Below, piece by piece: positions 9,039-31,743 of a stretch of DNA of 36,028 nucleotides. The DNA is from Pirellulaceae bacterium (GTDB taxonomy: Bacteria > Planctomycetota > Planctomycetia > Pirellulales > Thermoguttaceae), in assembly GCA_012744395.1 (NCBI GenBank), contig JAAYCB010000185.1:1-36028 (forward strand), read 5' to 3'. The notes beneath the pieces were generated by a model. The model did no database searches, had not been told where the DNA came from, and was given only the letters and a program-made list of their open reading frames with translations. Both the position numbers and the translations under genes were made by a program. Numbering within the stretch: position 1 is the first letter of the stretch; each line of letters begins with the position of its first letter.

Positions 9039-9650
9039 ATGCGCGTTGGACTGTTCGGAGGCACATTCGATCCGATCCATTACGGACATCTGTTGCTCGC
9101 CGAGGTCTGCCGCGAGCAGTGCGACCTGGACGAAGTCTGGTTCCTGCCCGCTGACGTCCCCCCCCACAAACAGGGCGAAATGGTCTCTTCGGGGCAGGCT
9201 CGCGCGGAGATGATCGAGCTGGCGGTTGCCGGCAACGCCGGGCTTCTTGTCAGTCGCCACGAGTTGGAGCACGGCGGCGTGAATTACACGGTCGATACGC
9301 TCCGCCACTTCCGCGATGAAACGCCGGAGGCGGAGTTGTTCTTCCTGATGGGCGCCGACATGTTCAACGACTTGCCGAATTGGCGCAATGCGGAGGAGGT
9401 CTGCCGGTTGGCGGTTCCGATTGTGGCCCAGCGGGCCGGCGTAAGCCCGCCCGACTACGATTGCCTCCAGTCGATCGCCACGCCGGAACGGATTTCCGAG
9501 CTGCTCAACTACCAGGTCGAGATGCCGCAGATCGAATTCAGTAGCACCGAGATTCGCAACCGGGTCGCCGAAGGGCGATCGATCCGCTATCGGACCCCGC
9601 GAGCGGTGCAGAAGTACATCGAAACCCACGGGCTCTACCTGCCCACGTGA
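9039..9650 (+). CDS. nadD: Nicotinate-nucleotide adenylyltransferase NadD
   Basis: 203 residues, typical of the family (190-215). NadD transfers AMP from ATP to nicotinate mononucleotide, giving deamido-NAD in the cytoplasm. The N-terminal nucleotidyltransferase signature GGTFDPIHYGH (7-17) supplies His14 and His17 for ATP phosphates; PADVPPHK (38-44) and the C-terminal SSTEIRNRV (169-176, the SxTxxR motif) are also there. GADMFNDLPNW (105-115) is the substrate loop usual in NadD. Start at 9039: the family sequence begins there and GGGAG lies about 12 bases before it. Divergent from priA. nadB is 15 kb away, so the NAD genes are not an operon here. A foldback repeat follows 26 bases after the stop. 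Confidence 0.95.
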   Translation: MRVGLFGGTFDPIHYGHLLLAEVCREQCDLDEVWFLPADVPPHKQGEMVSSGQARAEMIELAVAGNAGLLVSRHELEHGGVNYTVDTLRHFRDETPEAELFFLMGADMFNDLPNWRNAEEVCRLAVPIVAQRAGVSPPDYDCLQSIATPERISELLNYQVEMPQIEFSSTEIRNRVAEGRSIRYRTPRAVQKYIETHGLYLPT

Positions 9651-9676
9651 CTCAGGGGCCGCACGTAGGCAGTCGC

Positions 9677-9880
9677 CATCCCATTCCCTACGCCGAAGGC
9701 GTTGAACAGCAAAGCATGCAAGCCACCCGACAATCCACCCGGAAAGGGTCGCACAACGCATCCCAGTTGTGGAACCCTTTCGGGGTTCTTGAGGCTCCGT
9801 GGCTGCATGCCCCAGGGTGCGCCGCTGTGCGGCAACCCTGGGCTTTGCTGTTTAACGCCTTCGGCGTAGGGAATGGGATG
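9677..9880. repeat. 204-bp foldback element with 39-bp terminal inverted repeats
   Basis: The arms 9677-9715 and 9842-9880 are inverted copies with 38 of 39 bases matching (the only change is in GCGTTGAAC versus GCGTTAAAC). The pairing continues inwards imperfectly (GCATGCAAGCCAC against GTGGCTGCATGC, then CGGAAAGGGT..ACAAC against GTTGT..ACCCTTTCGG) to a loop near 9765-9773, so the whole element can fold into one long stem. A side hairpin, CCAGGGTG..CAACCCTGG, interrupts the right half. Each arm also holds the small hairpin ACGCCGAAGGCGT. There is no coding capacity for a transposase. It may be a MITE-like or REP-derived element; it may also end nadD transcripts. Confidence 0.75.
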
Positions 9881-10109
9881 ACAACCGGTATACTCACATT
9901 CTGGTTCCACCCAGGGACGCGGCGCGCACCGGCTTCTTGCCACCCCAGGGCTGTCCCCCTCGAAAGCACCCGGGCTGCCGAGCGTTATATATGCCGCCAG
10001 TTCGAGCCTGGGTCAGAACCGGGCTGGCGCCGGCCGGCGGCGGCGCGCCGGCCAACCCCGTTCTCTTCCTGCCCGCGGTTTCCGGGGTGTGTATCAGGAG
10101 GTCAAATCC
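9881..10109. other. Gap upstream of the frameshifted secreted-protein gene
   Basis: With the foldback element this completes a 459-bp stretch without a gene. It holds an AT-rich TTATATAT (about 9983-9990) that could be a -10 region without a clear -35, a GC-rich block of GCCGGC repeats (10024-10056) able to form a hairpin, and the AGGAGGT ribosome site (10096-10102) of the next gene. I see no coding frame. Confidence 0.5.
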
Positions 10110-10388
10110 GTGCGAACTGTCTTGGCACTGTTACTCGGTGTCGCTCTCGGAGCGGTCGTGTTTGCCGCAGCCTGGCCGGCCGCGCCGGCGGAGAGTGCGG
10201 CGAACGCACCCCCCCAAGGTCCAGCTCAAGGAAAAATCGGCCACGGTCTTTCCCGTGCGGATTGTCACGCCGGCCGGCCCAAACCCAGTCGATCTCAGGC
10301 AGCGGATTGCCGAAGTGGTCGGAATGCTCTTGGAGCGGGCAGGCCTCGACGACGTGCGGCTGGCGAAATCCGCGTTCACTAGTCCGGG
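10110..10388 (+). pseudogene. Signal peptide and N-terminal part of a frameshifted secreted hypothetical protein
   Basis: A GTG at 10110 follows a perfect AGGAGGT by 7 bases and encodes VRTVLALLLGVALGAVVFAAA, a clear signal peptide, then PAAPAESAANAPP. In a C7 run (about 10209-10215) the sensible reading shifts: after it the neighbouring frame gives PKVQLKEKSATVFPVRI, then VDLRQRIAEVVGMLLERAGL, up to about 10384, while the original frame becomes atypical and stops at 10380. At a GGGG run (10386-10389) the reading returns to the first frame and continues as the 10389-10904 segment. The two shifts cancel. Either the gene has two compensating lesions or the assembly has two homopolymer errors. 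I do not recognise the family. Confidence 0.6.
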
Positions 10389-31392: not shown

Positions 31393-31743
31393 CCACGGGA
31401 CGGTCAAGCCCGGCTCTTCTCCAGGCGATCTGCCGTACAGGGCCCGGGGCGCCGCGGCGCCCCCGGGGAGGAATCGCTCCGCGCAGCTCTCTCGCCTCCT
31501 CCTCCCGCCCGCGAATCCTCCCGGATCATCGAGAAATGCCCAGCCCGGCGGCGGAGGATTGAAACCGCCGAGGCGACAGGCTATTCTGGAAACCACTGCT
31601 GAAGCTCTCGCATTTGTGGCATTTTCCTGCCACCGTAATTCACATCATCAATGCGAGGTGTTTTCATATAGGGGCTGCCTTGGGAGACTAGCGGATCGTT
31701 GCGGATCCATGGTAAGGGGCAGAGCATGGGAGGGAAAAGTGTG
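31393..31743. other. Intergenic region before the giant repeat protein (351 bp)
   Basis: It holds a strong GC hairpin (31446-31463) early on. The rest is AT-richer than the surroundings (31590-31680), which is where a promoter for the next gene would be expected, but no box pair is convincing. GGGAGGG (31728-31734) is the ribosome site of the next gene. Confidence 0.5.
31446..31463 (+). terminator. Perfect 18-bp GC palindrome, possible terminator or attenuator
   Basis: GGGGCGCCGCGGCGCCCC is its own reverse complement and lies 53 bases after the dehydrogenase stop. No U-tract follows, so an intrinsic terminator in the E. coli sense is not shown; a stable hairpin at the transcript end is still plausible. 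Confidence 0.35.

Follow-up and report, generated by a model that had tools for sequence, protein, structure and literature searches.

A gene-less foldback element beside nadD in a Pirellulaceae bacterium as a likely member of a REPIN-like family of an IS200-type transposase

Repeats of the general kind considered here are already known in planctomycetes: the account of R. baltica given in PMC3733652 mentions several REP families together with many tyrosine transposases accompanied by flanking repeats. From the side of the transposases, the description of TnpA-Y1 class 3 in PMC6006769 places this class between insertion sequences and REPtrons and reports several atypical hairpins around the gene. 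In the open-licence papers that we searched, no description of a family with three hairpins at each end was recognised.

The window analysed herein is a 36,028-nt stretch of DNA from a Pirellulaceae bacterium (contig JAAYCB010000185.1 of assembly GCA_012744395.1), in which a foldback is located between nadD and the next gene. We consider it likely that this foldback is a gene-less REPIN-like copy from a family of an IS200-type Y1 transposase, scattered through related bacteria. The label that suits it best is a REPIN/REPtron-like family of an IS200-type transposase, the movement of which we infer.

The inverted arms of the foldback (9672-9715 and 9842-9885) are 44 nt each, are 93% complementary and enclose 126 nt. 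In their inner 39 nt (9677-9715 and 9842-9880), 38 of 39 positions (97%) are complementary, exactly the inverted ends that an earlier note on this DNA had reported. As RNA, the stretch 9660-9900 reaches a folding energy of -154.8 kcal/mol (shuffled sequences: -85.2, sd 5.0; z -14.0), and as DNA one of -92 (z -15.1); none of 200 shuffles folded equally well in either form. The same note had the entire 204 bp pairing with itself. The foldback stands, and 'entire' is slightly strong for a folded stretch of 224 nt with about 80% of its bases paired and for inner arms, nearer the centre, that show only 77% similarity versus 97% in the outer ones. With inner arms of such modest similarity, the window element as a whole is not fresh.

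Read from the outside in, the left half of the foldback carries hairpins A and C, without B, and the right half carries A, B and C (Table 1). The right half presents a two-hairpin unit, composed of hairpin B (CCCAGGGT..ACCCTGGG), a T-rich linker and the triloop hairpin A (ACGCCTTCGGCGT). Hairpin B is the side hairpin of the earlier note, which had rightly assigned it to one half only (9811-9842) and had taken it for an insertion. It seems better read as a hairpin lost from the left half than as one gained by the right, because other members carry B in both halves. The absent left stretch would sit between two GC dinucleotides, as slippage across a hairpin predicts.

Table 1. Coordinates of the features of the foldback within the window
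Feature	Position	Strand	Basis or remark
Whole gene-less pair (REPIN-like element)	9677..9880	.	Symmetric pairing weakly continues to 9672-9885
Left hairpin A (ACGCCGAAGGCGT, triloop)	9690..9702	-	Model R1, minus strand, 9687-9718, 26.9 bits
Site of absent left hairpin B (between AAAGC and ATGC)	9714..9715	.	Right half has a hairpin between identical letters
Degenerate counterpart of hairpin C, left (CCGGAAAGGGTCG)	9739..9751	-	Pairs with right hairpin C in RNA and DNA folds
Foldback centre, CACAAC..GTTGTG stem and loop	9752..9771	.	Sequence reading, RNA and DNA folds
Right hairpin C (GAACCCTTTCGGGGTTC)	9772..9788	+	Sequence reading; hairpin C known in other members
Right hairpin B, 'side hairpin' (CCCAGGGT..ACCCTGGG)	9811..9842	+	R1 match 9811-9870, 80.7 bits; alignment A1
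T-rich linker (CTTTGCTGTTTA)	9843..9854	+	CT and T-rich linker conserved in A1
Right hairpin A (ACGCCTTCGGCGT)	9855..9867	+	Family conservation ends directly after it
Outer extension (AGGGAATGGGATGACAAC)	9868..9885	+	Inverted repeat at 9672-9689; outside the family unit

The unit is widely dispersed among relatives. We aligned 27 units from the loci of relatives (alignment A1: hairpin B, linker and hairpin A, with matches centred on the right half), and 97.9% of the cells pair, with changes on both sides in six pairs; as the rows were picked for readable hairpins, this rate owes something to the selection, which bears less on the double changes. R1, a covariance model of the two-hairpin unit for which no more than 91 candidates were scored in each genome, matched at E 0.001 in 35 of 60 related genomes, and under the same limit on candidates the richest single relative gave at least 86 matches. 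In the identical 60 genomes, the plain pattern of hairpin B was found at 213 places versus 23 for the reversed pattern. The base pairs of 64 distinct, higher-scoring units comprise 1052 Watson-Crick, 3 G-T and 23 mismatched pairs, and this near-absence of wobble pairs points to, rather than proves, a constraint on DNA and not on RNA. A choice of strand through the wobble pairs was rejected, the 3 G-T and about 13 A-C cells (A-C counted by eye) being too few and too related. Units also tend to form pairs: among the 150 places listed for R1, there are 29 neighbours within 400 nt, 24 of them back to back, 4 in tandem and 1 face to face, and the gaps between neighbouring units cluster near 100, 122 and 151 nt. 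A scan of named genomes for the unit pattern gave one match, in Rhodopirellula maiorica SM1.

The genome of the window itself (6.17 Mb, 551 contigs, 98% complete) yields a different picture for the complete element. The copy count that the earlier note had suggested gives the full element once at home, with partial copies at C120 and C461, beside the units present in more than half of the relatives; R1 at E 0.1 finds 12 matches at 9 sites of the own genome. A search with the whole element in 396 genomes of the order, including the own one, returned 12 genomes with a match at E 1e-10; outside the own genome, these matches cover at most 141 of 241 nt, and neither the own genome nor the 395 others hold a near-identical sibling of the full element. 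Elsewhere in the window, a weak R1 match (31415-31467, minus strand; 15.2 bits, E 0.022) is probably due to chance.

The units lead to one particular group of transposases. The Y1 domain (PF01797) is present in 49 of the 60 relatives, and we read 33 Y1 loci, 30 from relatives and 3 from the own genome. Units were located within 1.5 kb at 14 of the 33 loci, the other 19 being without units, and none accompanied the genes at eight loci of typical IS200 proteins (L037-L044). In a tree of 31 Y1 proteins, 13 of the 14 flanked ones fell into one clade (support 95/86); the exception, L054, has a gene that looks frameshifted, and it groups with the unflanked L046. A profile built from 11 flanked clade proteins (A3), in all of which H56 and H58 (HUH), Y116 and Q120 are invariant, detected the clade at E 1e-25 in 119 of 296 genomes of the order, with 1-5 matches each. 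All 30 clade loci listed from this search carried units, 22 of these loci being new with respect to the first survey, versus 0 of 29 nadD loci taken as a control; since A3 was built from flanked genes, the figure of 30/30 applies to the clade and not to Y1 genes in general. The nearest units usually stand 45-80 nt off the transposase gene and are oriented outward at 19 loci, inward at 5, on one side only at 4 and in a mixed fashion at 2.

The proteins of this clade are about 150 residues long and of the IS200 type. Four of four tested members scored above the cut-off of 55 for NF033573 (IS200/IS605; 60.2-62.1 bits), and three of three were matched by PF01797. The model of REP-associated tyrosine transposases (NF047646) matched one of four members, weakly (24.2 bits, cut-off 80), and gave nothing for the other three. 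The only solved relative found for the clade protein was the ISHp608 transposase (E 0.0096). Two loci deserve mention for their unusual arrangement. At L055 (G037:C35, 1486-2025), the reading frame enters the repeat directly past the catalytic tyrosine, as though the end of this copy had cut its gene short or become fused to it. At L170 (G200:C78, 1075-2551), several near-identical back-to-back pairs follow one another at a spacing of about 251 nt beside the transposase gene, like a tandem array.

Gene-bearing and gene-less forms agree in size. Between bracketing units, the median gap without the gene is 120 nt (97-232, n=19), and for gene-less pairs it is 103 nt (n=24). Because these two gaps are so similar, the pairs without a gene appear to derive from the element by deletion and to be moved in trans; in the simplest reading, such a pair would be the element minus its gene. 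The triloop hairpin C flanks the gene on both sides in 16 of 19 cases (0.3% for shuffled flanks), and its stems agree within an element in 15 of 16 cases versus 68 of 240 between elements; read most simply, the two ends of one element would change together. The feet of hairpin C are TGTN in 25 of 55 cases and [AC]CG in 15 of 55. Behind these two kinds of foot there may be two subfamilies that differ in their guide sequences.

Such regularities bear on the notion that the hairpins are hot spots for Y1 insertion, that is, targets and not the element's own ends. There are five of 30 loci at which the gene lies between inward-facing units, as if between two pairs, and many units occur in places without a gene, as this notion would have it; yet we find it unlikely, given that most loci are bracketed outward, on both sides and at 45-80 nt, that hairpin C occurs on both sides and with stems matched within the element, and that the other Y1 clades of the same genomes are unflanked.

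The family reading would work as follows. An element has two inverted ends of three hairpins each, A being the outermost, followed by B and C. Autonomous members carry these identical two ends around the Y1 HUH transposase gene, and the gene-less pairs would, most simply, be derivatives of such members by internal deletion. The transposase would recognise and presumably cleave the single-stranded hairpins and would copy or move gene-less pairs in trans, probably at replication, when the DNA is single-stranded. The MITE mobilised in trans that the earlier note had offered as one option is thus partly retained: a miniature element served in trans fits best with the presence of units in relatives, the empty site of a congener (see below) and the same ends around a transposase gene, and the classical MITE with terminal inverted repeats gives way to an element of a Y1 single-strand transposase (IS200/REP type). 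Counting against the family explanation are the lack of a sibling for the full element, the lack of an intact transposase at home, arms that remain alike past the unit, a blurred junction at the empty site, and the 11 of 30 loci without an outward pair.

The immediate surroundings of the foldback were considered separately. The upstream gene is indeed nadD, as the earlier note had called it (NF000840, 197 bits, cut-off 150); its stop codon ends at 9650, and 26 nt separate it from the element. Within the element, no gene was recognised, again in line with that note, and the listed open reading frames there cross the arms and look spurious by eye. A scan of 30 nadD loci showed the window's own element alone, none of the 29 loci of relatives having a unit. 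The genome G001, of the same genus and about 89% identical nearby, has about 68 nt in place of the window's 306, which represents a presence/absence difference at nadD. An empty site was thus found where the earlier note had proposed to look for one; its junction is blurred. The companion search for target-site duplications was less fruitful: none was seen by eye at either border, and the blurred junction belongs to the sole empty site.

The position on the transcript side of nadD and the very strong RNA fold might speak for a local RNA structure that ends the nadD transcript, as a terminator or an mRNA stabiliser, and that is kept for its function there; the earlier note had listed this option as well. 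We regard it as very unlikely. Neither the relatives' nadD loci nor the congener have the element, so that a single copy conserved at one locus in relatives, which that note had taken as the mark of a local regulatory structure, is not what we see. In addition, wobble pairs are hardly used in the units, and the region 9500-10200 contains no terminator-like sites (a G+C-rich stem followed by a T run) and no promoters. As to an identity in Rfam, the only hit was MIR6457 (E 1.4, 17.7 bits versus a threshold of 140), a chance match. A side effect of the element on the nadD mRNA is possible.

One feature of the window copy stands apart from the family. Over 98 units, conservation ends directly past hairpin A, whereas the arms of the window agree at 13 of 15 nt beyond the unit, versus 1-8 of 15 in 16 other pairs. 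A late inverted duplication or a conversion of the ends may lie behind this agreement. That the whole window copy was made locally, by an inverted duplication (template switch) of one half-unit with some host flank and not by transposition of a complete pair, would suit both this continued symmetry and the missing sibling, but it is most improbable, as a single duplication should leave arms evenly alike inside and outside, and the layout A-C-C-B-A is that of an ordinary family pair minus one B.

Returning to the reading as a family member, we looked at the transposases of the own genome. Four stretches resemble the clade protein (C369, C383, C472 and C542). By eye, C542 is no more than a short piece of such a gene, and the other three look like partial genes with a repeat resembling the unit behind them. 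This repeat receives 32.9 bits from R1 at C472 and 17.6 bits at C383; R1 scores none at C369 or C542. No intact cognate transposase was found in the own genome, where the A3 profile has no matches at E 1e-25. The own-genome PF01797 proteins at C169, C282 and C531 were rejected as cognates, having no unit nearby; the protein at C169 is hit by the REP transposase model alone, with a score under the cut-off (64.5 versus 80). Because the left hairpin B is absent and the assembly holds no intact cognate transposase, the copy in the window is likely to be old or stranded, or else served by a gene absent from the assembly. Speaking against the recent formation that the earlier note had suggested are the uneven similarity of the arms and the failure to find a near-identical sibling in the genomes searched or an intact cognate transposase at home. 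As a separate observation, a Y1 fragment occurs at an apparently identical place in both congeners (L150 at G000:C542 and L014 at G001:C300), after a DNA-polymerase-Y-like gene that we take to be ImuB-like. There is a unit beside the fragment in G001:C300 (7536-7595), and R1 found none at the own C542. The fragment common to both may be an old shared insertion.

Within this one family, the ends, the size and the inner hairpins are common to members with and without the gene, and the gene is still present in 119 of the 296 genomes of the order. It thereby becomes possible to test how a transposon turns into a REPIN, and how hairpins are recognised that vary in concert at both ends. It is tempting to go further and to suppose a separate kind of single-strand transposon, standing between IS200 insertion sequences and domesticated REP systems, with symmetric three-hairpin ends, stems that change together within an element and differ between elements, and a gene-less form equal to the element minus its gene. 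We put this forward tentatively, as a serious possibility that we would not yet back; if true, it would directly show REPIN populations arising from an IS200-type ancestor.

Among the described systems, MITEs and TIRYT elements, as outlined in PMC3733652, resemble our family in having a gene-less derivative with inverted ends that is moved, in our case presumably, in trans; they differ in that the ends here are hairpins with changing stems and not a fixed terminal sequence, and no target duplication was seen. The IS200/IS605 family is close in its protein, with NF033573 above cut-off, the HUH motif and catalytic Y, and the ISHp608 transposase as solved relative. However, each end here is an inverted copy of the other, pairs without a gene occur commonly, and the eight typical IS200 loci of the same genomes are without a unit.

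The likeness to TnpA-Y1 class 3, as far as the published description in PMC6006769 goes, extends to planctomycete-type hosts, a protein of about 150 residues in which conservation reaches the end and the Q lies four residues from the Y, and atypical hairpins flanking the gene. By contrast, the CnGA foot stated for that class is found at 7 of 98 hairpins here when hairpin B is taken as the flanking structure.

Finally, REPIN/REPtron systems, in the accounts of PMC6006769 and PMC8266576, share with our family the dispersed palindromic units, the back-to-back pairs with near-fixed gaps and a low-copy Y1 HUH gene (here 1-5 matches per genome) flanked by those units. The REPIN tag GT[AG]G was found before 0 of 98 B hairpins and in 0 of 55 cases within the 8 nt preceding the trimmed stems of hairpin C; by eye, GTG together with the G of the stem gives GTGG in 5 of 55 hairpin C cases. 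Unlike those systems, the family described here has three hairpins per end, its gene often lies inside a single pair, and its clade protein scores as IS200 type and not as a REP transposase.
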